A stretch of DNA of 64,000 bases from Lunularia cruciata (taxonomy: Eukaryota; Streptophyta; Marchantiopsida; Lunulariales; Lunulariaceae): assembly GCA_948567375.1 (NCBI GenBank), contig OX419756.1:2671001-2735000 (forward strand). The letters are read 5' to 3'. The notes under the pieces were generated by a model. That model worked only from the letters and a program-made list of their open reading frames with translations, was not told the DNA's origin and ran no database searches. Within the stretch, counting starts at the first letter, position 1. Each line of letters opens with the position of its first letter. Shown piece by piece: positions 20,230-52,229 of the stretch. The position numbers and the translations under genes were made by a program.

Positions 20230-20695
20230 CATAATATTTGCTAAGAGCTAAAGTAAGAAGAATTAGATTCTCTTGCAAGTTTACATCTTAAGTAGATTTC
20301 ATATTTATAGGGAACTTACAAGGCTCTTGAGAAGCTTTCTAGAATCTGCCTTCTGAAAGTGCAAGCTAAGCTAACCAGGAAGCTTCTTGAGAAGTTTTCT
20401 TCTAGAAATTGTCTACTTGGTGTGCAAGCTAATCTAGTCCAGAAGCTTCCCAAGAAGCTTCTTTCTAGAAACCATCTACTTGGTATGCAAGCTAAGCTTA
20501 ACTAGAAAGCTTCCCAAGAAGCATTCTCTTAGAAGTTGCCACTTGACATATATATTACCTAACACTTGGTAAGTACCAAGAAGCTTCCTAAATAATTCTA
20601 GAATAATTTTATAATTCTTGGCTAATTTGGCTAATTTGTTACATTATTAGTCTTGACTAACTCGTCTATAAACTCCATATTGTTGTAAATTCTCA
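20230..20695 (-). repeat. 3' LTR of G5, old and diverged
   Basis: The right side matches the G-family LTR end (CTCCATATTGTTGTA against CTCCATATTGTTACA), followed by the same internal sequence (CTCTAGTTGGTGATGTCC). It has TATTTATAGG (TATA on the minus strand, about 20310) and several GAAGCTTC-type motifs, but is more diverged than the LTRs of G1-G3. The outer limit is approximate. Confidence 0.6.
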
Positions 20696-21425
20696 CACCT
20701 CTAGTTGGTGATGTCCTTGTTACCATGGAAGCTTCAAATTTCTAGATGGTCTTTTTTTCATTATGGAGTTGAGAAAGAGGCCTTAGGTGACATTATGAAG
20801 CGGATACACTTTCCAAAGGACTTTGTACTCAATATGTTGTTGTGACCATTGATGGGGATGAGGAGAAGAGGGGGTTGGACACAAGTAGGAAAGGAAGATG
20901 AATTAGAAACAAAGGATTTCAATTTGGAAAAATGAAAGACATGGTATATTTATATATGACTAGGCAAGGTAAGAAGATTAGAATGTATGATTTGGGTGAC
21001 ATTAAATGGACCTATCCAATTAGGAGCAAGTTTACAAAATTAGGTATCAAGTGGAAGGGGTAAGTTACTAGATGAAAGTATGACCTTATCATTGAGTTGA
21101 AAGGTGAGATCACAATGATGTTGATTGCATATCACTTTTGACAATTTTGAGCAACAAGCAGATGAGAGTTGACTTGTTGTAAAGAGTCGGATATTGTGGT
21201 CAAGAAGGTGGAAGTATGAGAAATGTGTAGAAGGAGCAAGAAGAGAATTTGGAACAAGTGGGTCTTAGCCAAAATTAAGGAAGCAAGGAAAGAATTTGTG
21301 CTTGCATACTTGGAGTTGTTGTAGGCAAATTCAACAGCCGTAATGCATGCATCCTTGTTAGTATGGTGAATATTGACAAAGACACAAAGCTTATCTTCCA
21401 AGGTGCAATTTGCACATTTGGTTTG
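20696..21425 (-). mobile_element. G5 chromovirus, left part (chromodomain and integrase end)
   Basis: Minus-strand internal sequence is collinear with the chromodomain-to-integrase part of G2 and G3, with many stops. It is cut at 21425 by G2. It resumes at 52230: GTTTG is found at 21421-21425 and again at 52230-52234, and the two sides join into the text found uninterrupted in G2 and G3 (about 22650 and 36285). G5 is therefore the oldest host of the nest. Confidence 0.85.
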
Positions 21426-21848
21426 TGTAAAAGACCAAAATCGAGGAGAGAAATAGGAGAATGGAAACTCACATTGGGACACTTGAATGAGGGAAAACTC
21501 CGAATGCCTAGCATGAGCTTCGGCTTCGGTATTTATAGGTAACATACAAGACCCTTGAAGTTTCTCAAGAAGCTTCCTTGAGCCGCTTTCTTGGAGTGCA
21601 AGTCAAGTTAACCAAGAAGCTTCTCAAGAAGCTTCCTTTTAGAAGCCGCCTACTTGGCATGCAAGCTAAGCTAGTTAGAAGCTTCTAGAAGCTTCCTTCT
21701 AGAAGCTACCTGCTTAGGGCGCAAGTTAACTAGTTGGGAAGCTTCTCAAGAAGCTTCTTAGATGCTTCTAGAATATTCTAGGCTATTTTGTCTTATTATC
21801 TACTTTGTAAGCCTGACTAACTTCGTTGCTAAACTCTATATTGTTACA
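21426..21848 (-). repeat. G2 3' LTR with heat-shock-element array
   Basis: It ends TGTAAAAG ... TGTTACA on the + strand. TATTTATA at 21530-21537 is the TATA box of the minus-strand promoter. Upstream in transcription sense lie GAAgcTTCtaGAAgcTTC at 21678-21695 and TTCtaGAAtaTTC at 21766-21778, both perfect heat shock elements, plus several GAAGCTTC pairs. Confidence 0.85.
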
Positions 21849-23240
21849 TATTCCCCCGCCGCTAGTTGGTGACGTCCTCGTTGCCAGTGAAGCTTCAAAT
21901 TCCTTGATGGCCGTTTGTGCATTTTGGAGGTGGGAAAGAGGTTCCCATGTGGCATCATGAAGGGGGTACCCTTTCCAAAGGACCTTGTACTTCGTATGTT
22001 GACGATGGCCTCATTGAATATGGCAACGTGCAAGGATACCATCAACTTTGTACTCCTCATGATCATTGATAGGGACAGGAAGAGGGGGAGGTTGGACTTG
22101 ACAGGAAAAGGAAGAGGGGTTAGGAACATAGGGTTTCAACTTGGAAACATGAAAGACAAGATGGATACGCATGTGACAAGGCAAGGCAAGCCGATAAGCA
22201 ATAGGAGAGACAATGTGGGTGATATCAAAGAGTCCTATCCAATTAGGGGTAAGTTTACGAACTTGGGTATCAAGTGGGAGAGGGAGGTTACTAGAGGATA
22301 GAATGACTTTATCACCAACTTCAAAGGTGAGATCATGACGATGGTGGTCCGCATATTGTTTTTGGCAATTCTAAGCAACAAGGAGGTGAGACTTGGCTTG
22401 TTGGAGAGATTGGGATATAGTGGAAGTAGAGAATGTGGAAGTATGAGGAACTTGAGAGGGAGGGGGAGCAAGGAGAGAATCTGGAACAAGCGGATCTTGG
22501 CCAAAATTGAGAAAGAAGGGGGAAAATCTAGTGCTTGCATATTTGGAATTGTTGTAGGCAAATTCTGCTGCTGCAAGACATTCATCCTAGTTGGTATGGT
22601 GGACATTGACAAAGGCCCGCAACATATCCTCTAATGTACGATTTGCACGTTCGGTTTGTCCATCAGTTTGAGGATGATAGGCCGTGGACAAAGCAAGCTT
22701 GGTGCCAAGTATTTGGAAGAGTGCTTGCCAAAACTTCCCGATAAATCAAGGATCACGGTCAAAGATAAGTACACGTGGTATCCCATGATGCTTGAAGACA
22801 TTGTCGAAGTGGATTTGCGCTAAGGTTGGAGCATCCACGGTATCATAGGTTGGTGCCAAGTGGATTTGCTTACTAAGCTTATCCACAAACACCACGATTG
22901 CGGTGTGTCCTTGCTTTGTCTTTAGCAAGGATGTAATGAGATCCAAGCTCACATGCTTCCAGTGAGCTGATGGAATGGCGAGTGGTTGAAGGAGTCCACT
23001 CGGCTTCTGGTTGCTGGCCTTGTTCCGTTGGCAACTCTCACATGATTGGACAAAGTCTCAAACATCTCGTGTCATGTTGGGCCACCACCATTGGCGTTGG
23101 AGGGTGCCCAAGGTCTTGTCGACTTCCATGTGACCAGCTATTGGTAAATCATGGGCTTCTTGAAGGCGTACAAGTCGAAGATCACCTTTGGCTGGAACAT
23201 AGATCTGGTCTACATGGAATAAGAGGCCTTCCTTGAAGGA
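21849..23240 (-). pseudogene. G2 integrase and chromodomain
   Basis: The minus strand reads the integrase Zn-binding start (HDLPIAGHMEVDKT, WWWPNMTRDV), then the catalytic core (LDLITSL near 22940, then VLIFDRDP) and a C-terminal chromodomain near 21890-22080. TGA at about 22743 interrupts FDRDP-FIGKF where G1 has CGA (Arg). Another stop lies near 23055 after TRDV. Frameshifts occur further on. The enzyme would insert element DNA, and the chromodomain would guide it to marked histones. Confidence 0.75.
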
Positions 23241-25144: not shown

Positions 25145-25210
25145 TGTAAAAGACCAAAACCGAGGAGAGAAATAGGAGAATGGAAACTCACATTGGGACA
25201 CTTGAATGAG

Positions 25211-25876
25211 TGTCGTGCGTATATACATCGCTACACAACATACATCACTATCAACATCATACACTATAGAAGCACAACTCACACATAAGTCATACATAGA
25301 CTCTAAAGTGCCACAATTAATCAGATTGCTTAACATTCTCAACTCAACTCAACTCAGATCAGTACTTGATCTGTCACTCTATAAATTGCCAACAACTGGA
25401 CACTGATTACAGTCAAGCCACACCCACTCACGCATAGAGAATCCAGGTGACGCTCGCCGGCCTCTGTCCACCATAGCCAGGAACTCGAAGGCTCAACATC
25501 AGAGAAGTGAGTTCTCTGGAGCTCACTTCAAAACTATACCCCCTAGACTTGAGCTAGCTCTGAAACCCTAACGGTCCCACTGACGGCACACTTGACGGTG
25601 CAAATGGTGCAAAGTGACGGTGGGCCCCACCGTGAAGTCAGTACCCCAAACACAAAATCTAACCGTCGGAAAGTAGTCTCTGAGAAACTACTAGAATAAT
25701 TCTAACTACTATCACTGGAACTCCAATGTCCAAGCATCTAGATGAAAAACTACAAATGGCATGATAGCTGTCGTGCGTATATACATCGCTACACAACATA
25801 CATCACTGTCAACATCATACACTATAGAAGCACAACTCACACATAAGTGATACATAGACTCTAAAGTGCCACAATT
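25211..25876 (-). repeat. M1 3' LTR region with a duplicated 108-bp terminal block
   Basis: A core (about 25319-25768) matches the right LTR (34677-35112). It is bracketed by two nearly identical 108-bp blocks, 25211-25318 and 25769-25876, each running from TGTCGTGCG to GTGCCACAATT. CCCCCCT at 25877-25885 is the polypurine tract read on the minus strand. The right LTR lacks this block on both sides. Confidence 0.75.
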
Positions 25877-26024
25877 GCCCCCCTAGCTGGCGGTTAGGTC
25901 CCTCTAACTCCAGATAGCCATCTACTCTAAGTATATGGTATACCCTCTAATGGGCAAAGATCAAGAGGCCGGGTGCTATGGAGCCCCATCGTTAGTCGCC
26001 TGTCTGCAATCTATACCATATAAA

Positions 26025-26306
26025 GAATGAACTAGCTATAGGTCAAGTACATCTAGGACATAACCACTATCCTTGAGGAACCACCATGAGGGGAGGAGTC
26101 ATACATGCCATATGCCATCCTCTCGAACAGCTATCACACACTAACATAGTAGCAGCTCCACCAGAAGAGCCACATAACATACACCTCAAGCCTGCACGTA
26201 CAAGTGCCAAGCTTGGGTCCATAGTACCATCAATGTTTGGAAGGTGGCATGGCGCACAATTGCGCACATGATCCTTCCAAACAACACCATCACGTCCTTC
26301 TAACAC
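26025..26306 (-). pseudogene. M1 PHD finger downstream of the integrase
   Basis: The minus-strand frame reads CMLC, then CDSC, GWHMAC and TPPL, a TAG at 26064-26066, and then WLCPRC: a complete C4HC3 PHD zinc finger, broken only by the stop. The last pair sits after the conserved Trp. PHD fingers read histone H3 tails. Its place after the integrase, where chromoviruses have a chromodomain, suggests a targeting module. The TAG fits CAG (Gln) to TAG. Confidence 0.8.
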
Positions 26307-26479
26307 AAGGACTCAAGATGGCAAAACCTCATGCACTCTCAAGATAGTGCAGCTTGTAGAAACATCAAGTGTTGTTGGTGCTGTTTGCTGTAGATATACA
26401 TAGTCGCCTGGATGAAATTGACAGATCGAGGGTCTATAACCTCCTCCTCAAATGGTAGCATAGCGTAAAGTATCTCTAT

Positions 26480-27344
26480 GCTGAGCAATCGCCAAGTTCT
26501 CAAAGGCCATTGGGATCACTCTCCAAAAGATCTCTGCCCGTTGAGAACATGCACTCATCCATACATCGAGGTCATCCAAGTCCAAAACTACAGTAGCATC
26601 TCGACGAATGGCTGCAAGTAAATCTGGATCTCGTCTATAGAGTAGAAAGTATGGAGAGAAGGATGCTAAGGAGGCTTGCCGGCTGAACCGCTAGCCCATG
26701 GCCAACCAAGGTAATTGGAGATCCCAATCTCCCAAGTGGCCTCTTTGCAAACTATACTTTTGCAATCCTCTCTTCACCGTCTGAACCACTCTCTTTGCTA
26801 AGCCATCTGCCTTAGGGTGATCTCGGGATGTAGTACGATGATCAATCAAAGCCTTGTCACACAAGACCTAAAACTCCCCCAAGAACTCTATACCCTGATC
26901 AGTCAAAACCTCAGCTGGTGCACCAAAATGACTAAGAACTCGATCCAGCAACGCATAAGCTATCCCTTCACTAGACTTGTCAGGAAGTGCCACCAACTCA
27001 ATCTACTTGGAGAAGTGCTCCACCATCACCAAAATGTACCGATGATGTCTCACAGTCAGCGGTAAAGGTCCGGTGAAGTCCAAACTCCAATGGTAACCCA
27101 ATCCCATGATAAGTAATGGGTGTAACTGTGGCATAAGAGCATTGAATGATGCTCTAACTCGGTCACAAACCACACATCTGGCAATAAACTGCTATACCTC
27201 GGTTTGCATACCGCGCCACCAATAATGACTTTGGAGTAAGCTATATGTACGCTTTACTCCAAAATGTCCTAGCTCCTCATGAGCATGACGGACCAACTGT
27301 GGTCTCTGTGATGGAAGTGGTACTACTCGCACTCTACCATCCTC
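26480..27344 (-). pseudogene. M1 integrase
   Basis: Read on the minus strand: HAHEELGHFG, a SHYWW segment and RCVVC make the HHCC zinc domain. SLDFTGPLP and LTDQG hold the two core Asp residues, and DHPKADGLAKRVVQT ends the core in place of the usual PQ.NG.AER. TAG codons follow EV (about 27196) and EF (about 26868) at positions that are usually Gln. The frame is otherwise long. Confidence 0.75.
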
Positions 27345-28019
27345 TCATACACGCAAAAGGTGTCTACCCTCCAATCTGAACCGTCTGGCTCGCTGAAGAA
27401 CATGGTCTCTCTCCTTGGCCCCAACTGTGCCACCCACAACACAAGTGCAAAGATAGCCCATCACTAAGACATCATCATGAATGTCTCGCTGAACTGTACC
27501 AATATCTTCACTCTTTGGATCTATGACCTCAATAACTCCTCCTGTATGCGCTAAGAGAGATACCACCAAAGCCTCTGCAAATATACACAGAAAGGCCGAT
27601 GCATGCCAACTTGGCACCATCTCCTCATCTGTCTCACCATGCCAACGTGCTCCGGTCTGATCATATTGGCTGGGACATGGGTTTCTACTCAACCCATCTG
27701 CATCACGGTTCACCACTCCAAGTCTGTGAACAACCGTGAAATCATACTCCTGTAAAATCAGAGCCCATCGTGCAAGCTTCCCTGAAAGCTTGTCGGACTC
27801 CATCAACCACTTCAATGGCTGATGATCATTGATGAGAGTGAAAGGGTTACCAAATAGGTAACATCGGAAATGTGCTACTACCCAAACTGCTACCAAGCAC
27901 TCTCTCTCATATGAACTATACTTCACCTCCGCTGAATTGTTGGAGCGACTAGCATAGGCCACCACAAACTCCTTCCCCTCATCATCATGCTGGGTGAGCA
28001 CCGCTCCAAGCCCCAACAT
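27345..28019 (-). pseudogene. M1 RNase H
   Basis: The frame reads GLGAVLTQHDDEGKEFVVAY, YSSYERECLVAVW, HQPLKWLM and FTVVHRLGVVNRDADGLSR. These are the RNase H strand, the catalytic Glu helix and the C-terminal DADGLSR box of Ty3/gypsy RNase H. The run is uninterrupted for 224 codons and then leads into the integrase linker with RRFRLEGRHLLRV. Confidence 0.85.
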
Positions 28020-28046
28020 ACTCCAATCATTGTGAACCTAAAATGG

Positions 28047-28930
28047 TCATCCTCTGACCGGTCTCCTCAAAATAGGAGCAGATGTCAACCTCTCCTTGAG
28101 CTCTACAAAAGCTCTCTCCTGCTCATCTCCCCAACACCACTCTTGTGTAAGCTTGGTCAGCTTTGTCAAGGCCTTGGCAATGGCACTAAATCCTCTAACA
28201 TAGCGGCGATAGAAGTTTGCCAACCCAAGGAATGCTCGCACTCTGCTTACATCCGTAGGCCGAGGAATACATGCAATAGCCTCCACCTTGGTCTGTTGAA
28301 CACCAAGTCCTCCGGGGTAGATAGTGTGACCCAAATACTAAACCTGCTTGTGGAAGAACCTACACTTCCCAAGATGTAATTTGAGTCCATGAGATCTCAA
28401 CCTCTCAAACACCTCCAACAATTGTCTCTCATGCTCCTCCACAGTAGTGCTATAAACCAGAATGTCATCAATATAGCACCAAGCAAAATCCAATCCAGCT
28501 AGGATCCTATCCATGACCCTCTAGAACTCAGCAGGAGCGTTCTTCAACCCAAATGGTAAGAACCTCCACTGATATAACACATCTTTGCCGTGAGGATCAA
28601 TAGCCCAAAATGTTATCTTGGACTTATCCTCCTCCCTGATTGGCAAATGATGATATCCCGCTCAAAGATCCAAAGTATTGAAGACCTTTGCATGCCCAAT
28701 CGCATCAAAAATCTCCTCCGGTGTACGCATGGCATACCAATCAGCCCTGGTCTGTCAGTTGATAAGACGGTAATCTCCACACATCCGCCTATCGGTATAG
28801 TTGCCATGCATATCCTTCTTGGCTGGCATCATTGTTGCTGATGCATACTCTCCATGTGAAATCTCCACCAAACCAGCCTCAAAAGGTCACTACTCCGGCT
28901 CTGAATCAATGTCCTCTCCATATCACTATA
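28047..28930 (-). pseudogene. M1 reverse transcriptase with four stop codons
   Basis: The minus strand reads MCGDYRLIN, TPEEIFDAIGHAKVF, ITFWAIDPHGKD, WRFLPFGLKNAPAEF, WCYIDDILVYS (catalytic Asp pair) and YLGHTIYPGGLGVQQ, then AFLGLANFYRRYVRGFSAI. Stops interrupt LIN-QTRAD, LDL-AGYHHL, AEF-RVMD and QV-YLGH. The middle two fit CGA to TGA (Arg) and CAG to TAG (Gln). The catalytic core is otherwise well kept. Confidence 0.85.
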
Positions 28931-29155
28931 TCAATAAGGACGTCGGAAAATAGGTGTGTCGCTAGTCAGCTCAATCCATATACCAGGTCCCTTTAGAGCA
29001 CCCAAATCCTTCATACTGAAGGCAAAACAACTCGTGTGACTCCTCAAGAACCTCCAAACCCTCCGTCTTTCCTCTCCAGTAAGCTTGGGTCCAAGATCTG
29101 GCTCCCAAGTATCCTCTGTAATTGTAGTAGGAGTGGAAGATGTACTGACTGACTG

Positions 29156-29500
29156 CTACACTGGGCCCTTGGGAGCAATAGTGTCATGCTCTCGACCACT
29201 AGAGATCCCAACCTCTATGCAAAAAACTCCCTCCACTTTGGCTGCAAGCTCCACACGTCCTCTAGCTACATCCCATGTGGACCAATGGTGTAATCCAAGT
29301 AGCCCACACTCACTTGGATGGACTCCAAGTAGACCACTCTCCCTAGTATCTACTGGATATGTCCCAAGAATACCATGTCCACTCAGTCCATCGCCCCCAG
29401 CATGTGCCTGAATCGTCTCGATAGGCACAAGGCTCACAAGTGTCCGAGTGGTGATGCCTATCAAGCACATCCTATGGTGCTCTGCTAAGCCAAGGCTCAC
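29156..29500 (-). pseudogene. M1 linker after the methyltransferase, unrecognised
   Basis: This is in the same frame as the methyltransferase and separated from it by a stop near 29501. It is Gly/His-rich with repeated LLG.H and SECGLLGLH-like text. No domain is recognised. It lies between the methyltransferase and the RT, so it is probably part of one polyprotein. Confidence 0.45.
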
Positions 29501-29503
29501 AAT

Positions 29504-30724
29504 CTAGGTCAAATAGTTCAGGTCCATAGCCTGACCTAACACCTGATGCCTGGATGCCTCTGACACTGCTGGAATAGCGGTAATACCGGTGTGAAAACCC
29601 ATCGCCCGCTCTCTCTCATCAGCGTTGGGCTCCACAAATTGCTGTAATTGTGAGTTCCAAACAAGTCCAGGTCCTCCTTCTTGAAAAGCATGAGAGCCTG
29701 GGAAACTCATGAGTGTGGGAAATGCAGCTCTAGGCTATCCAACTAGGTTCACCACTGCCATAGGTGACCTATCAGCCACTACCAATGTCTGAGACTGACG
29801 CCCAACATCCAAGATATCATCAACAAGAATGTGGTCTAGTCGCTGAATTCCATCATAAGAACGCTGTAGAACCTCTTTGGGTAAGAGGTTCGTCCACCAA
29901 AGACGAAGACGATGAGCCCGTGATCCCACTCTGGCTGCATCTAACATTACAGCAGGTCCCATCCAAGAATGGACCTGATGTGTACTCGCCACCACTCTAG
30001 TGCGAGAATCACCCATCAAAGGAACGTTCTTCAAAAGGTAAGCTGGAGAAACAGACTGATGAACCTGGAGATGTCATAGTATCCGTAACATCTCCCAAAA
30101 CACACCAGAACGAGGATCCTAAAGACCCAAACCGCGGCCCGCACGTATATGTCCCTGACATGGCCATCCAGAAATCACCAAGTGAATAGGCCCATGTCTC
30201 TCTAGGTCATGCGCCCCCAGTAAGGAAATGTCTCCTGGTAGGGCCTTCTGGTAACCTCTGACTGCTGACATCGGTAATAACTTTGGATACCAATAGGCCA
30301 AGTGTGCCACATGATGTAGAGAGACTCGCCTAACAATCTCATCTCTCTCTACATACAAGTACCTCTGTACTCGAATACCCGCCTGTAACACCGCAGCTAG
30401 TCCGGTGCTGATCCCACCAAACAACTCCAATAGGCATATCCCCTCTATTGGATACTGCCAAGCAATGAGTGTGGTATCCAGAGGTGTCAAAGCAATTGCC
30501 TCTGGAGGCTCATCCTCACACTCATCCCATGATGATACAAAGGCTCCACTCCAAGCCTGCTGCACCAACTGATATGCATGTTGCTGCAATGCCTCCTCTG
30601 AACTCCACAATGGAACATCCAAGATGGAACAATCCCACTCGTACTCCATAGTCGAGTGATCTCCGAGTATCCTCTGCATGGGCGTTCCACTCCAACAAGT
30701 CACCAGGCCAAGTAACTGCACCAC
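29504..30724 (-). pseudogene. M1 cytosine-5 DNA methyltransferase domain
   Basis: One frame, broken by stops near 30118, 30055 and 29732, carries C5-MTase motifs in order. LLELFGGISTGLAA (about 30433-30392) is motif I (SAM binding). VERDE is the motif II acidic strand. GWPCQG (about 30169-30152) is motif IV with the catalytic Cys at 30158-30160. KNVP (about 30032) stands for motif VI ENV, so the catalytic Glu is now Lys. AHRLRLWWTNL covers motif VIII. RERAMGFHTGIT and LGQAMDLN are motifs IX-X. The expected role was methylation of cytosine in DNA, perhaps of element copies. The Glu-to-Lys change and the stops make this copy inactive. Confidence 0.88.
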
Positions 30725-31487
30725 TGAAAGCTAAAACTGATGTTGCCATGGTCCCAGACTGTAGTGAGCCAAGACTACCACTACTGAAGCGTACTGGTAG
30801 GTGACATACCCGTCCCTCACCAAACTGCCAACCAGGTCTATAAGAGGTTGTCTCCTCCCAATAGTCAATGCTGAAACCCATAGGGTATAACACTGCTCCC
30901 CCAACTAGCACATCATATGACTCAGCTATTGTCGCAATAGCCTGAGCTCTCACCACCGAGCTATCAGTCGGATGACCAGGCTGAACCTGGACAACAAGCT
31001 CTCCACGTGTGATGTATTGTGTCGAACCACCACATAGAGATGTTTGGATCTGAAATGGACACCTCTCCACATCGGTCTTCCGTAACTCTAGACCAACAAC
31101 TACAGCCTTCCCCAACATAAGGGGCTGCGCACCAGAGTCTAACAAGACTCTCTGTGGTGTATAGACCTTCCCTGAAGGTCCCACCAAACAAAAAATCCCC
31201 CTCTGGTTATCCAAGAGGACAACACCAGGTGTAAACCGCGCTCTCTCAAAGGCCGGTCTAGCTGGCAACTCCTCCAATCTAGCCGTTGTTGCCTGCCATA
31301 AACCATTGGTCGTTGAACGGATCCCATGCTCCTCAACCAAGTCAGCTCCACTACCAACCACCTCTGCTCTAGTAGTAGGAACTGCACCATCCCTACTCTC
31401 ACACAACGCGGCAGCCAACCGGAATACTGGGGCTGGGTCAACTCCCAATGTAAACATGTCACTGGCTAAAAACAAAGGATGCCGCAT
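30725..31487 (-). pseudogene. M1 aspartic protease
   Basis: The frame reads VYTPQRVLLDSGAQPLMLGK, with the catalytic Asp in LDSGA (about 31142). Later come the flap and second-lobe strands (ESYDVLVGGAVLYPMGFSID). It shares the gag frame (33038 onward), interrupted by TAG at 31488-31490. The frame stays open to 30522, but the homologous reading shifts by one frame near 30720 into the methyltransferase, so an indel or a programmed shift lies there. Confidence 0.75.
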
Positions 31488-31490
31488 AAT

Positions 31491-33038
31491 CTACTGAGTC
31501 GCCCCCAACATCATGCTAGACTCAGTCTGTGTAGTAGCAGGTGGCTGACTAGCAGGTACTCCATCAGGTACTCCATCACCACCTACCATACCTGCATTAG
31601 GACGTCTAGGAACCATGGATGTTGTCTGCAATGCCTCAGATAGCGTGAAAGACCGGGGAAGTCTGACTTGTCTTCCAACCTCTCCTCTCTGTGGGTCCAA
31701 CTCCACTGATGCTCCTCTAGGCTCTAGAGCACGTACTGCACTCCTAGTCACTGCTGTAGATGCATCCACCTGTGCTGCTCCGCACATGAAGTCCAAAGCA
31801 TCTCTATCACCAGCATATGAGGTGGAAGCCTCAGCGCCCGAATCTGATCTCCTTTGAGCAATAGCCATACTAGCCAATCTTTGCTCCAATTGCTCAATCC
31901 GAGTAGCTATAGCTGTGTCAGAAGTAAGGGCAGGTACTGCACCCCTACTAGGTGTAGATCCTCTACCACCACCTCTACCACCTCATCCTCCATGAATTGG
32001 AGATCCTCTACTACCTGCCATAGTAGCCCTACCACTCCGTAACTCCCGATGTAGGTCAAAACACCGGTCACTAGTGTGACCAAATCTATGGCACTGCTCA
32101 CACTTCCTCTGTGCTGGCTGTGATGCACCAGAGGTATCAAGTCCGCTGCCTTGAGTACACTCTCTCCTATGGTGAGGTCCACCACAAGTCCAACAAGCAA
32201 CACCACCACTCATTGGCTGCTGCTGACTCAAAAATGAGGGTAAGGGTCTAACTCCACTAGGTCCTCCACTCGCTCCATAGGATCTGGGCAGTCTACCCTG
32301 TCCTCGAAAATGAACTCGGCGTGGTGCACTCTGCTGTACTCTAGAAGAAGTCACAGCCATGGATGAGGTCTCCCTACCAAATCTAGATGTCACCACTCTC
32401 TTCTCCACCATGTTGAGCTCAATACGCTTAGCCAAACCAAAGACTACTGCCAAAGTGGGCAAAGTAGCCTGCAACAACGTAGCATCACAAACTCTACGTC
32501 GCAACTCCCTGTCCAATATCCCATACCAAAATTGGACTGCTTGGGCCTCAATAACTCCTTGAATGAAACTGATCAGCCGCCTCATGCGAGTGTATGCCTC
32601 ACGTAGGCTCTCTCCAGCCCTCCGCTGAAACTCCTGCAAGCTCCTCAACTTGTCAGTCCGCACTCCTTGGTAGTTCTGCCTCAAACATAGGAAGAACTCC
32701 ACCATGGGGTTAAACCTCGATACCACACCACCTCTTGCAGCGGTACCTCCACTCGTAGTAGCACTATTTCCAGCTAGTGCACCTCCACTAGCTCCACCAA
32801 CACTACTCGAGCTAGAACTCGTAGGTACAGCCGATCTACTCCAGGCCACCGAACTTGAAGTGATGGAGACATAGTGTGGAGACCAATATTGTCTCCATAA
32901 CTCAATCTCCTCCAAATGAGCTCTCTTGAACTCATGGTAGTCATCCATTGGCGGACCCTCCAAGTGCTGAAACAACCTCTTCCATGCCATGAAGGGTGTG
33001 AACAAAGTCGGGTTCCGCATCTGCTGCAGATCACACAA
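31491..33038 (-). pseudogene. M1 gag with two zinc knuckles
   Basis: The gag helical part has FMAWKRLFQHLEGPP and SLQEFQRRAGESLREAYTRM. CWTCGGPHHRREC and CEQCHRFGHTSDRC are two CCHC RNA-binding knuckles (about 32200-32060). TGA at 31983-31985 interrupts a Gly-rich tail where Arg (CGA) is likely. The same frame continues to 31491. Ser- and Gly-rich low-complexity linkers lie at about 32850-32720. The coding start may lie upstream of 33038 in another frame. Confidence 0.8.
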
Positions 33039-34676
33039 CTGTCGAACTCCTAGATGAAGTCATCCAACTCAATGGTACCCACTGTACCAGAGTAACGCCT
33101 AGGGCCTTTGGAGGCCCCATAAATCTTGTCCATGTCCCACAACAACGGTGCGGACACACCAAGTGCACTCTCAACAAAATCAGCTCCTGTGTTGAACTCC
33201 AACTCAGAGTCGATCTCCTCCCTCACTGAGACCTAAGATACAGGCTGATACCGAGCACCACTCCGAGTAAACCCACTGCATACTACAGGGCTAACTCCTC
33301 TGGAATCTCCAAAGAACTCCGTCGTGACCAAGTAACCACAACAACAAACCCAAACCACCAACTGCAACTGCAAGTGCCCCACCAAGTGCCAACACCACCA
33401 CGTGCCAACACCAACTAAGCACCACCCACTAATGTAACTCTAACCGAGATAACTACACTAGGGGAAGGGCAACCTGTAACCTGCCATCATAACACGCACT
33501 CTCACAATCTGCAGGTCATCACTTCCTGCCTCACCGGAGAGAAACAAAGGTAGTCTGATTGGTCATCACTCCAGCCTCACAATCGAGAGCACACCAGAGC
33601 ACCAATGCTCAAAAGTCAGGGCACCTCACACAAACGTGGTGCACAAACAGGAAGTAGAGAATGGAGGGGATCTAATCACAAGAAATCTAAACAAAAACCC
33701 TCCATCTCATAACACAACACGGGATTGACTCTACCACCATTTGGCATTTGACATAAGACTAGTTCGTATCTAAGTCCTAAGCTACCAGGATCACCAAGAA
33801 TGGAATCAAATTGCCTCTCCTAGCCAAAGCTACATGTGTATAGATAACAGTGGCACAGTCACTAAGACAACAAGTGAGGGTGGACCAATTGGCTAGGGCA
33901 CCAGTCTAGGAACAAGAGATCTAAGGATCAAACCCTGTTGTGCACAATCTAGCAGGAAAGGCAGATTTTGCCAACCAATGACCAAGATCTACTCTAAACT
34001 AGCTAGCCTCATGCCAGCAAGCTGGCTTGCTGGCCCTTTGTAGCCTCTCATAGCCCACAGCCCTATGCCTCAAAGCCTTGAAACGCCAAAATTCAGCCAA
34101 ATGAGGCCTTTCTTGTTGCCACTTTGAACCTCCTCCAAAATTGGCAAAACTTCTCCAAATCTACAAAAGTCCTCCAAACTAGCAAAAGTCCTCCAAATCT
34201 GGCCAAACAGCAAAAACTCCTCCAGTTCTAGCCAAAATCTGACGTAAATCTGATGTAAAATCTGACATAAACCCTAAAGATGGCTGCACGCCAAATCCCC
34301 GACTAACTTTCCACTTGAGCCAAATTGACAAAACAGGTTTTTCCAAATCACAATTTCATGAGAAAAGCTTCCCAACTCCACCTTAAATTTGACTTTTTGA
34401 GCCCAACTCGGAGCAAATTGGTCCTACTTTCACCTCCTGAGCTCAAAATCACAACACTGCTCAAAAATTGCTCCTTCTTTGCTCAAAATTTGGCCAGCAT
34501 TTCCGCACACCGTCCGCCTAATTGCCAAATCTGCATCACTTGAACAAGCTTCTGCACACTAGGGAAACACAGAACTTGAATCGAGCTACCACGATCCACC
34601 GAGCTTGGAGATACCACCAACACTTAACGTTCCTGCACCCGATTTCCCCTTGACTTCACTTCTTTGATGTAATCAG
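33039..34676 (-). other. M1 5' leader
   Basis: A short decayed coding stretch (about 33230-33055, reading EEIDSELEF and SGTVGTIELDDF on the minus strand) may be the gag N-terminus in a shifted frame. The rest to the right LTR has no coding signal. No primer-binding site complementary to initiator Met tRNA was recognised next to the LTR at 34676. Confidence 0.45.
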
Positions 34677-35112
34677 ATTGCTTAACATTCTCAACTCAAC
34701 TCAGATCAATACTTGATCTGTCACTCTATAAACTGCCAATAACTGGGCACTGATTACAGTCAAGCCACACCCCCTCATGCATAGAGAATCCAGGTGATGC
34801 TCGCCGGCCTCTGTCCACCATAGCTAGGAACTCGAAGGCTCAACATCAGAGAAGTGAGCTCTCTAGAGCTCACTTCGAAACTATACCTCCTAGACTCAAG
34901 CTAGCTCTGAAACCCTAAGAGTCCCGCTGACGGCACACTCGATGGTGCAAACAGTGCAAAGTGACGGTGGGCCCCACCATGAAGTCAGTACCCCGAACAC
35001 AAAATCTAACCGTCGAAAAGTAGTCTCTGAGAAACTGCTAGAATAACTCTAACTACTATCATTGGAACTCCAGTGTCCGAGCATCTAGATGTGGAACTAC
35101 AAATGGCGTGAC
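34677..35112 (-). repeat. M1 5' LTR
   Basis: This is collinear with about 25319-25768. Anchors are AATCAGATTGCTTAACATTC, GCTCGCCGGCCTCTGTCCAC and CGGTGGGCCCCACC. It ends GGCGTGAC directly before the ATGAG duplication, so its outer end lacks the 108-bp block seen at the other LTR and does not have a canonical TG/CA end. Confidence 0.75.
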
Positions 35113-35477
35113 ATGAGGGAAAACTCCAAATGCCTAGCATGAGCTTTGGCTTTGGTATTTATAGGTAGAATACAAGGCCCTTGAGAAGCTTCTCAAGAAG
35201 CTTCCTCAAGCCGCTTTCTTAGAGTGCAAGCCAAGTTAACTAGGAAGCTTCTCAAGAAGCTTCCTTCTAGAAGCCACCTACTTGGCGTGCAAGCTAAGCT
35301 AGTTGGAAGCTTCTAGAAGCTTCCTTCTAGAAGCTACTTACTTAAGGTGCAAGCTAAGCTAACCGTGAAGCTTCCCAAGAAGCTTCCTAGATACTTCCAG
35401 AATATTCTAGGCTAATTTGTCTTATGTGCTACTTCGTGAGCCTGACTGACCTCGTCGCTAAACTCCATATTGTTGCA
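35113..35477 (-). repeat. G3 3' LTR, inner part (outer 66 bp at 25145-25210)
   Basis: Completes the LTR split by M1. Perfect HSEs lie at 35306-35323 (four units) and 35395-35407 (three units). It ends TGTTGCA where the other copies have TGTTACA. The polypurine tract is at 35478-35490. Confidence 0.85.
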
Positions 35478-37254
35478 TATTCCCCCGCCGCTAGTTGGTG
35501 ACGTCCTCGTTGCCAGTGAAGCTTCAAATTCCTGGATGGCCGTCTGTGCATTGTGGAGGTGAGAAAGAGGTTCCCAGGTGGCCTCATGAAGAGGATACCC
35601 TTTCCAAAGGACCTTGTACTCTATATGTTGGCGACGGCCTCGTTGAATGTGGCGACGCACAAGGATATGATCAACTTCGTACTCCTCATGATCATTGATA
35701 GGGATAGGAAGAGGGGGAGGTTGGACTCGAGAGGAAAAGGAAGAGGGGTTAGGAACAAATGGTTTCAACTTGGAAACATGAAAGATAGGATGGATACGCA
35801 TGTGACAAGGCAAGGCAAGACAATAAGCAACAGGAAAGACAATTTGGGTGATATCAAAGGGTCTTATCCAATTAGGGGCAAGTTTACAAACTTGGGTATC
35901 AAGTGGGAGAGGGAGGTTACTAGAGGATAACATGACTTTATCACCGACTTTGAAGGTAAGATTGTGACGATGGTGGTCCGCATATTTTTTTTGGTGATTT
36001 TGAGCAACAAGGAGGTGAGACTTGGGTTGTTGGAGAGATTGGGATATAATGGTCAAGAATGTAGAAGTATGAGGAACCGGAGATGGAGGGGGAGCAAGAA
36101 GAGAATCTGGAACAAGCGGATCTTGGCCAAAATTGAGAAAGAAAGGAGAGAATCCGGTGCTTGCCTATTTGGAATTGTTGTAGGCAAATTCGGCAACGGC
36201 AAGACATTCATCCCAATTGGTATGGTGGACATTGAAAAAGGCACGCAACATATCCTCCAATGTACGATTTGCACGTTCGGTTTGTCCATCAGTTTGAGGA
36301 TGATAGGCCGTGGACAAAACAAGCTTGGTGCTAAGTATCTGAAAGAGTGCTTGCCAAAACTTCCCGGTAAAGTGAGGATCATGGTCGGAGATGAGTACGC
36401 GTGGCATTCCATGATGCTTGAAGATATTGTCAAAGTAGATTTGTGCTAAGGTTGGAGCATCCACGGTATCATAGGTTGGTGCCAAGTGGATTTGCTTACT
36501 AAGCTTATCCACAAACACCACGATGGCGGTATGTCCTTCTTTTGTCTTTGGCAAGGATGTGATGAGATCCAAGCTCACATGCTCCCAACGAGCTGATGGA
36601 ACGGCAAGCGGTTGAAGGAGTCCACCCGGCTTCTGGTTGCTGGCCTTGTTATGTTGGCAACTCTCACACGATCAGACAAATTCTTGAACATCCCGTGTCA
36701 TGTTGGGCCACCACCATTGACGTTGGAGGGTACCCAAGGTCTTTTCCACACCCATGTGACCAGCTATGGGTAAATCATGGGCTTCTTGAAGGCGCACAAG
36801 TTGAAGATCACCTTTGGCTGGAACATAGATCCGGTCCGCATGGAATAGAAGGCCTTCCTTGAAGGAGAAGGTGTTGTACTCCTTGTCACCTGTTGTTAGC
36901 CGACCATGTACCATTTGTAAGAAGGGATCTTGCTGTAGAGCTAACCAAAACTCGTTATGAATCTTGGGATCAATTGACACCATCGTAATTGCTGCCGTGA
37001 TGAGAGGAAGAGACTTCAAATCAGGTCGTCGTGATAGAGCATCAGGGATGGCATGGAACCGACCTGGTTTGTACTCAAGTTTGATGTTGAACAATTGGAG
37101 TTGCCCTTCCTATCGATGATGTCGACTCTTCATGTGCTCTAGGTGTAAGGTCTGCAACAATGGCTTGTGATCAATTCACATGATCACTTGTTTTCCCAAG
37201 AGATAATGCCTCCATACCTTGGTGGCATATACCATTGCAAGTTGTTCCCGATCT
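35478..37254 (-). pseudogene. G3 integrase-chromodomain and end of RNase H
   Basis: The minus strand reads RNase H end (FNIKLEYKPGRFHAIPDALS, 37094 on), the integrase Zn region (HMGVEKTLGTLQRQWWWPNM), the core (LDLITSLPKTKEGH, VLISDHDPHF, AYHPQTDGQTE with the DDE residues) and a chromodomain (EEYEVDHILVRR ... EYKVLWKGYPLHEATWEP, 35690-35540). A frameshift lies near 36165-36056 and a stop near 37174 (TGA where G2 has CGA). It is the best-kept chromodomain of the minus-strand copies. Confidence 0.8.
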
Positions 37255-44214: not shown

Positions 44215-44640
44215 TGTAAAAGACCAAAACCGAGGAGAGAAATAGGAGAATGGAAACTCACATTGGGAGACTTGAATGAGGGAAAACTCCAAATGCCTAG
44301 CATGAGCTTCGGCTTTGGTATTTATAGGTAGCATACAAGGCCCTTGAGAAGCTTCTCAAGAAGCTTCCTCAAGCCGCTTTCTTAGAGTGCAAGCCAAGTT
44401 AACTAGGAAGCTTCTCAAGAAGCTTCCTTCTAGAAGCTGCCTACTTGGCGTGCAAGCTAAGCTAGTTGGAAGCTTCTAGAAGCTTCCTTCTAGAAGCTAC
44501 TTACTTAAGGTGCAAGCTAAGCTAACCAGGAAGCTTCCCAAGAAGCTTCCTAGATACTTCCGGAATATTCTAGGCTAATTTGTCTTATGTGCTACTTTGT
44601 GAGCCTGATTGACCTTGTTGCTAAACTCCATATTGTTACA
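44215..44640 (-). repeat. G3 5' LTR with heat-shock-element array
   Basis: 426 bp, TGTAAAAG ... TGTTACA. TATTTATA at 44319-44326 is the minus-strand TATA box. Perfect HSEs lie at 44469-44486 (GAAgcTTCtaGAAgcTTC) and 44558-44570 (TTCcgGAAtaTTC), with further GAAGCTTC pairs between. It abuts TAGAC of the TSD. Confidence 0.9.
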
Positions 44641-45971: not shown

Positions 45972-46396
45972 TGTAACAATATGGATTTTAGCGACGAAGT
46001 TAGTCGGGCTCATGAAGTGGCACATAAGACAAATTAGTCTAGAATATTCCGGAAGTATCTAGGAAGCTTCTTGGGAAGCTTCCCGGTTAACTTAGTTTGC
46101 ACCTTAAGTAAGTAGCTTCTAGAAGGAAGCTTCTAGAAGCTCCAACTAGCTTAGCTTGCACGCCAAGTAGACGGCTTCTAGAAGGAAGCTTCTTGAGAAG
46201 CTTCCTAGTTAACTTGGCTTGCACTCTAAGAAAGCGGCTTGAGGAAGCTTCTTGAGAAGCTTCTCAAGGGCCTTGTATGCTACCTATAAATACCAAAGCC
46301 AAAGCTCATGCTAGGCATTCGGAGTTTTCTTTCATTCAAGTGTTCCAATGTGAGTTTCCATTCTCCTATTTCTCTCCTCGGATTTGGTCTTTTACA
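45972..46396 (+). promoter_or_regulatory. G1 5' LTR promoter: heat-shock elements and TATA box
   Basis: TATAAATA at 46285-46292 is the TATA box. Upstream, GAAtaTTCcgGAA at 46042-46054 and GAAgcTTCtaGAA at 46126-46138 are perfect three-unit heat shock elements (nGAAnnTTCnnGAAn). GAAGCTTC pairs recur at about 46063, 46075, 46185, 46198, 46244 and 46256. Transcription should start about 30 bp after the TATA box. Heat activation is inferred by analogy with the ONSEN copia element of Arabidopsis. Confidence 0.75.
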
Positions 46397-51144: not shown

Positions 51145-51198
51145 GAATTCGAAGCTTCATTGGCGACGATGACATCACCAACTAGCGGTAGGGGAATA

Positions 51199-51624
51199 TG
51201 TAACAATATGGAGTTTAGCTACGAAGTTAGTCGGGCTCATGAAGTGGCACATAAGACAAATTAGTCTAGAATATTCTGGAAGTATCTAGGAAGCTTCTTG
51301 GGAAGCTTCCCGGTTAGCTTAGCTTGCACCTTAAGTAAGTAGCTTCTAAAAGGAAGCTTTTAGAAGCTTCCAACTAGCTTAGCTTGCACGCCAAGTAGGC
51401 GGCTTCTAGAAGGAAGCTTCTTGAGAAGCTTCCTAGTTAACTTGGCTTGCACTCTAAGAAAGCGGCTTGAGGAAGCTTCTTGAGAAGCTTCTCAAGGGCC
51501 TTGTATGCTACCTATAAATACCAAAGCCAAAGCTCATGCTAGGCAATCGGAGTTTTCTCTCATTCAAGTGTCCCAATGTGAGTTTTCATTCTCCTATTTC
51601 TCTCCTCGGATTCGGTCTTTTACA
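51199..51624 (+). repeat. G1 3' LTR
   Basis: TGTAACAATATGG ... CTTTTACA, 426 bp. It carries the perfect HSE GAAtaTTCtgGAA at 51269-51281 and further GAAGCTTC pairs. It is very similar to the left LTR with a handful of differences. Confidence 0.9.
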
Positions 51625-51807
51625 GGAAGTATCAAGGGTTCTTCTGACACGGTGATCATATGTAGAAAATCCTGCCCAAAGCGCGAGGTGATGAATTGTG
51701 TGAAATGATGCTTTGGTAGTATCTGGACATGAAAGTCCCAATGGTTTGGCGGAAGTGGATTTGGTGGTCCATAAATTCCATCCATCCCATTCCTGCTCTG
51801 ATACCAA
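51625..51807 (-). other. G2 5' leader with primer-binding site
   Basis: The rest of the G2 leader right of G1. GCTCTGATACCAA at 51795-51807 is the primer-binding site for initiator Met tRNA. It is nearly identical to the G3 leader at 44035-44214. Confidence 0.8.
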
Positions 51808-52229
51808 TGTAAAAGATCAAAACTGAGGAGAGAAATAAGAGAATGGAAACTCACATTGGGACACTTGAATGAGAGAAAACTCCAAATGCCTAGCATGAGC
51901 TTTCACTTTGGTATTTATAGGTAACATACAAGACCCTTGAAGTTTCTCAAGAAGCTTCCTTGAGCCGCTTTCTTGGAGTGCAAGTCAAGTTAACCAGGAA
52001 GCTTCTCAAGAAGCTTCCTTTTAGAAGCCGTCTACTTGGAGTGCAAGCTAAGCTAGTTAGAAGCTTCTAGAAGCTTCCTTCTAGAAGCTACCTGCTTAGG
52101 GTGCAAGTTAACTAGTTGGGAAGCTTCTCAAAAGCTTCGTAGATGCTTCTAGAATATTCTAGGCTATTTTGTCTTATTATCTACTTCGTAAGCCCGACTA
52201 ACGTTGTTGCTAAACTCCATATTGTTACA
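51808..52229 (-). repeat. G2 5' LTR with heat-shock-element array
   Basis: TATTTATA at 51912-51919 is the TATA box on the minus strand. GAAgcTTCtaGAAgcTTC at 52060-52077 and TTCtaGAAtaTTC at 52147-52159 are perfect HSEs. It ends TGTTACA before TSD GTTTG at 52230-52234. Confidence 0.9.

Follow-up and report, generated by a model that had tools for sequence, protein, structure and literature searches.

The stretch of DNA analysed here, a window of 64,000 nucleotides from contig OX419756.1 of the liverwort Lunularia cruciata (assembly GCA_948567375.1, positions 2,671,001 to 2,735,000), contains a single decayed copy of a Ty3/gypsy retrotransposon that carries both a cytosine-5 DNA methyltransferase (C5-MTase) and a PHD finger. 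The element occupies 25211..35113 on the minus strand, has TG...CA ends, and is flanked by a target duplication of CTCA (25207-25210 and 35114-35117). An earlier note, made from the letters of the window alone, had set its limits at 25211..35112; the start stands, and the end lies one base further. Frames read on the minus strand give the order gag, protease (PR), MTase, reverse transcriptase (RT), RNase H (RH), integrase (IN) and PHD finger. The gag region (31490..33180) has two CCHC zinc knuckles at about 32160-32040, and the aspartic protease region (30900..31220), without a Pfam match, is recognised by its motif LLDSGAQP. They are followed by a broken DNMT3-type MTase, assigned from frames and family evidence (29456..30484; catalytic GWPCQG near 30150-30172), and by a stop codon whose context is of the leaky type (TAG at 29158-29156, then CAG TCA; 29150..29158). 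Beyond the stop lie the RT (28290..29000), the RNase H (27345..28150), an integrase with H2C2 finger, DDE core and C-terminal part (26330..27330) and, at the C-terminus of the second open reading frame (ORF2), the PHD finger (26046..26183).

Several stops interrupt the MTase frame of the window copy, and stops are also present in the RT, integrase and PHD finger. Stop-free pieces matched RVT_1 (3.3e-11), RT_RNaseH (PF17917, 1.1e-30) and PHD (PF00628, 8e-8) in Pfam, with weak scores for Retrotrans_gag (0.029) and rve (0.11); the two MTase pieces had no Pfam match at E <= 1. The MTase motifs that the earlier note had described between protease and RT (LELFGG, GWPCQG, NVP, RERAMGF and LGQAMDLN) were all seen in that order in minus-strand frames; the window reads LLKNVP where open copies read LLENVP, a change of ENV to KNV. 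The same note had reported a full C4HC3 PHD finger after the integrase; the finger is there, but one internal stop means that it is not full in this copy. The split direct repeats and the leaky-type stop, both described below, were absent from that note.

The combination of domains is beyond chance, as both other copies and other green lineages show the same order. The genome searched comprises 565.8 Mb in 74 contigs, and the family is very abundant in it, with over a thousand copies. An exact 17-mer of MTase catalytic motif IV occurs 1,295 times genome-wide, exact 5' ends 989 times, and exact 3' ends with the commoner joint 475 times; the reversed control of each gave 0. When the open MTase of one well-preserved copy (L018) was used as query, all 95 scored places, L018 included, were 96-100% identical; as 95 of 15,408 first-look candidates were scored, this is a lower bound. 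PF00145 matched at 123 scored places, a few of which are host methyltransferase exons. The first 40.4 Mb of contig C1 contain 86 exact 5' ends. On the same strand and no more than 12 kb away, 43 of them have an exact MTase motif, in 35 cases at 4.4-5.4 kb; the remaining 43 ends may be mutated, truncated or without MTase.

The note had proposed to look for an intact copy. Eight copies with long ORFs were fetched, and in four of them (L014, L015, L018 and L021) ORF1 and ORF2 lie in the same frame and are separated by one stop. ORF2 of L018 and L015 has 1,037 amino acids and comprises RT, RNase H, H2C2 finger, rve and PHD. The PR-RT-RNase H-integrase order of Ty3/gypsy elements (Metaviridae) is present. 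In open copies, Pfam gave rve at 1.2e-12, and DNA_methylase at 1.5e-7 to 2e-7 in all three ORF1 proteins scanned. At E <= 0.01, no tyrosine recombinase was among the Pfam matches of the five ORF1 and ORF2 proteins scanned, and no chromodomain among those of two ORF2 proteins.

A single stop divides gag-PR-MTase from RT-RH-IN-PHD. Its context was TAG CAG YCA in all 29 copies read, namely 20 sampled across the 95 scored places, the eight with long ORFs and the window; 28 have TAG CAG CCA and the window copy has TAG CAG TCA. This fits UAG CAR YYA, the leaky-stop context of tobamoviruses. According to a review, a gammaretrovirus produces its gag-pol by UAG readthrough (PMC5009743). The first 47 residues of L018 ORF2 contain no methionine. 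ORF2-type proteins of other genomes often have a methionine upstream of the same region and may be started differently, and in a partial gene model of Klebsormidium nitens (P0134) MTase and RT share one frame. The stop is constant, and 18 of the 20 copies sampled have a PHD finger at the distance expected; both bear out the claim of a Ty3/gypsy lineage with MTase and PHD in fixed places.

The element MTases are nearest to DNMT3 in sequence and in fold, and far from the RNA enzyme DNMT2; the DNMT3 fold and catalytic motifs are present at the level of the family, the window copy itself being broken. In an alignment of 104 element MTases, the catalytic cysteine and glutamate are kept in 100; the catalytic motif is lost in P0163, a protein of Astrephomene. 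Glutamate replaces the proline before the catalytic cysteine (GWECQ) in 48 of the 104, mostly in the group with the MTase between RNase H and integrase, a substitution that is unusual among C5-MTases. For the integrase part, an initial selection test misled (shared variants at 1.04 of neutral) because CG and CHG deamination recurs, and the test was repeated with these sites left out. The MTase is then found to be under purifying selection. The integrase part shows 1 nonsynonymous against 3 synonymous shared variants (P 0.20); the PHD finger shows no shared variants, and its single variants are 11 nonsynonymous or stop against 8 synonymous (P 0.03). In element copies, the frequency of CG and CHG transitions is some 4 to 16 times that of CHH ones, an excess that is the mark of long-term CG/CHG methylation. 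From its fold and conserved residues, the element enzyme is predicted to methylate DNA.

The PHD finger of L018 matches PF00628 at 2.2e-10. Among the 18 sampled fingers, three have a stop and one lacks a cysteine; the other two of the 20 copies have no PHD in the 201-base stretch examined, from which it may be displaced. By sequence, the closest solved PHD fingers are those of CHD4, KMT2D, KMT2C, PHF12, KDM5B and the DPF proteins; by fold, in a model that is good only over the finger, they are those of DPF2/3, BAZ2B, ATXR5, UHRF1, BHC80 and BAZ2A. Many of these fingers bind the unmodified histone H3 tail, as some structure entry titles say. By this likeness, the PHD finger of the element would bind H3 unmodified at lysine 4 (H3K4me0).

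Judged by its ends, the element may use its integrase in a way that differs from standard long terminal repeat (LTR) elements. Instead of two identical LTRs, one per end, there are split direct repeats in the layout A1...B1-A2-B2. A1 (34670..35113) is the sole repeat at the 5' end. Toward the 3' end, a G-rich, polypurine-like stretch (25877..25886) adjoins B1 (25769..25876), which is followed by a GC spacer (25767..25768), A2 (25319..25766) and B2 (25211..25318), all on the minus strand. B1 and B2 are 98.1% identical. A1 and A2 are 92.3% identical in the window; of the six fetched copies compared, five give 97.3-99.1% and one gives 88.2%, so the window copy is older than most of them. A reading of 25211-25768 and 34558-35112 as an ordinary pair of LTRs was considered and rejected: the 5' end does not share the last 108 bases. 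The split layout is present in six of the eight fetched copies and in the window; of the other two, L011/12 has B1, B2 and a 77-base piece of A, and L021/22 has none of the repeats. With B1-A2-B2 as query, the best 40 of 8,808 candidates, which were scored and include the window, all matched over the full length.

The termini read TGTCACG...CGACA, and a 4-bp target duplication flanks six of seven copies (L015 has none); TG...CA ends and a short target duplication are as in other Ty3/gypsy elements. The B1-A2 joint CGACA-GC-TGTC forms a perfect palindrome, GACAGCTGTC, in most copies and is mutated in the window. Among 30 copies picked by their likeness to the window, the joint of A2 and B2 reads ATT in 23 and AATT in seven; in five of these seven, B1 begins CGATT, so B1 was not the source of the additional A. 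Five exact cases with GACAGC before A1 (L102-L106) are tandems with internal-B-GC-A-internal joints; either recombination between repeats or circles may have produced them. At the expected position of a primer site, CTGAT-TAC-ATCAG spans the end of A1 and the bases that follow it (window 34655-34680); this sequence is slightly changed in the window and lies at the same place in fetched copies, and by eye it has no transfer RNA (tRNA) match.

Protein searches revealed that relatives of the element are distributed in liverworts, Sphagnum, Klebsormidium, Closterium and chlorophytes, so the description of a land-plant lineage in the earlier note was too narrow. The MTase search matched 77 proteins; the ORF2 search matched 679, and 120 of these were listed. 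Among the matches listed, the element proteins are close to those of Calypogeia, Marchantia and Riccia. A DRM reading frame of the host itself has its nearest match in Riccia sorocarpa (74% over 78%), in keeping with a host among the Marchantiopsida. With profiles built in this analysis, a PHD was found in 129 and an MTase in 119 of 186 proteins. The MTase comes ahead of the RT in proteins of liverwort type and in those of Klebsormidium and Closterium. In chlorophyte-type proteins it is placed after RNase H and ahead of the integrase; 51 of the latter show the full RT-RH-MT-IN-PHD order (MT, MTase), including P0163, and Tetrabaena P0165 is also of this type. Within the family, MTase and PHD keep constant places; among the relatives, the MTase has a second position and some proteins have no MTase or no PHD.

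In a pol tree of 119 rows with a distant outgroup, the RT-RH-MT group includes no MTase-first row, and four rows without MTase lie inside it; since they nest in an MTase-bearing group, loss of the MTase is suggested. An MTase tree of 104 rows, built from element MTases, shows the same split. Node support of the RNase H-MTase-integrase group is low in both (0.254 and 0.197, respectively). The trees are most simply read as a single capture, a single change of place and a subsequent loss, though this reading is not proven. A search of viral contigs gave one partial match to the MTase region and then none. A search of genome contigs gave six loci, two of which (L056 and L057) are PR-RT-RH-IN-PHD elements without MTase; no split repeats were seen in L056-L060, whose contigs are short. 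Three such MTase-less elements (L056, L057 and L058) lie in contigs binned as bacterial metagenome-assembled genomes, presumably by algal contamination.

DNMT3-bearing Gypsy elements with DIRS-like repeats are already known from Klebsormidium, and the liverwort family is a variant of that kind. KnitGypsy-Dnmt3 of K. nitens is a Gypsy element with an intronless DNMT3 under purifying selection and DIRS-like repeats (de Mendoza et al. 2018, PMC5890265). The Lunularia element shares with it the Gypsy pol, the intronless DNMT3 inside the element and the purifying selection, and also DIRS-like repeats, as far as the figure legend of that paper allows the comparison. It differs in the stop between MTase and RT, in the PHD finger shown here, in a copy number of over a thousand, in its liverwort host and in the second MTase position of its chlorophyte-type relatives; the word PHD is absent from the main text of PMC5890265. 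K. nitens proteins were matched (P0134, PR-MT-RT-RH-IN; P0142, RT-RH-IN-PHD), and P0134 is placed in both the pol and the MTase tree, where its branch is long; neither has a cellular DNMT outgroup. The published Klebsormidium element appears to be of the same lineage. Symbiodinium DIRS-Dnmt3 and LINE-Dnmt elements likewise have their own DNMT, belong to other retrotransposon classes and are described as independent acquisitions (PMC5890265). A 2025 survey names streptophytes and dinoflagellates as the groups for which DNMT3 in retrotransposons has been reported (PMC12344493). The literature covered, which leaves out most subscription journals, contained no report of the PHD, of the leaky stop or of the chlorophyte form, and the combination was not found in passages of PMC12730594, PMC12633428 and PMC8616336.

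Transposons are usually silenced by methylation, which makes a successful element with its own methyltransferase a paradox. We give an even chance to the reading that this Ty3/gypsy family carries its DNMT3 for marking its own complementary DNA (cDNA), reads histone tails and joins its ends before integration. Most ribosomes would halt at the leaky UAG and yield Gag-PR-MTase, so that the MTase, made at Gag level, would be packed in the particle; a few would read through to RT-RH-IN-PHD. Within the particle the MTase would methylate new cDNA, and the PHD at the integrase tail would dock the integration complex on silent chromatin by binding H3 tails that carry no modification at K4. A new copy would then arrive pre-marked and do little harm, and host maintenance methylation (CG, CHG) would hold the silence. 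Reverse transcription would yield ordinary B-GC-A repeats; the cDNA ends would be joined (A2|B2), and the integrase would cut the CA-GC-TG palindrome of the 5' repeat to give A1...B1-A2-B2. Chromoviruses, which are Ty3/gypsy elements with a chromodomain after the integrase, also have a chromatin reader at this end; here it is a PHD. That all these features, the Gag-level DNMT3 acting on its own cDNA, the PHD targeting of unmodified H3 and the joined-end integration at a palindrome, mark an ancient green-plant clade is put forward tentatively, as less likely than not.

Several points weigh against this reading. Activity, readthrough, packaging and histone binding are all inferred from sequence; the CG/CHG methylation may be wholly the host's; and the PHD selection rests on few variants. 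MTase and PHD are not indispensable everywhere, because P0135, P0137, L056 and L057 have no MTase while keeping the PHD, and three Closterium proteins listed have no PHD. As to the ends, a symmetric 2-LTR circle predicts both A...BAB and ABA...B insertions, and none of the latter was found among the 989 exact 5' ends; random cutting of such a circle is therefore not supported, and a one-sided cut is needed. Of 769 exact B1 ends, 402 continue into exact GCTGTC; the others may carry mutations, which is the case in about a third of the 30 joint copies, or may terminate there. Inspection by eye revealed no clear tRNA primer site or TGG start after A1.

The split repeats might instead have arisen by a route like that of DIRS/PAT elements, with cDNA ends aligned and closed on the internal B1-A2 and no free 2-LTR circle, a real possibility that we place slightly short of even. 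Such elements have split direct repeats, and the A1...B1-A2-B2 layout of the fetched copies and the window, together with the full-length matches among the best 40, agrees with it; it would suit the single orientation of insertions, and the Klebsormidium element is described with DIRS-like repeats. Unlike DIRS/PAT elements, however, the Lunularia element has TG/CA ends, 4-bp duplications in six of seven copies and a DDE integrase (rve), with no tyrosine recombinase among the Pfam matches. The G-rich stretch lies exactly before B1, the expected start of an ordinary LTR, and the one-base variation at A2|B2 is as expected from end-joining.

The MTase might also target host DNA or RNA rather than the cDNA, altering the surroundings or the element's own RNA. 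C5-MTase folds include RNA enzymes, the MTase would be produced in excess with Gag, and a LINE-borne DNMT did not methylate DNA in yeast, an RNA target being proposed in PMC5890265; we consider this unlikely, as the enzyme is nearest to DNMT3 and far from DNMT2, and a Gag-linked MTase should sit near the cDNA. A further reading takes MTase and PHD for leftovers of a structural or regulatory kind, for example part of a Gag scaffold, with neither enzymatic nor reader function; it would agree with the relatives without MTase, the lost motif of P0163 and the glutamate of motif IV in 48 of 104 MTases. It is improbable given the cysteine and glutamate kept in 100 of 104 and the purifying selection. 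The idea that host genes inserted separately and by chance into one element has nothing in its favour beyond the single broken copy of the window. It is already refuted by the 1,295 exact motifs, the 95 alike copies and the same combination in other lineages, and has practically no probability left. The earlier note had named relatives lacking both domains as a refutation; relatives without MTase were found, but they keep the PHD.

Considering the abundance of the family, its relatives in Marchantia, a laboratory liverwort, its fixed MTase and reader, and relatives in which the enzyme has moved or been lost, the purpose of the enzyme may be tested by comparison and biochemistry, and the leaky stop is a possible dosage switch. 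As a natural example, the family is well suited to the question of what leads a mobile element to mark DNA on its own.

The flanks of the window element are pieces of a different Ty3/gypsy family. The repeats of that family contain dense GAAGCTTC palindromes that resemble heat-shock elements; 51 were observed in the window against 1.29 expected by chance, clustered with a period near 60 bases. The repeats bearing them lie at 20379-20735, 21569-21896, 35185-35525, 44348-44549, 46063-46263 and 51151-52127.

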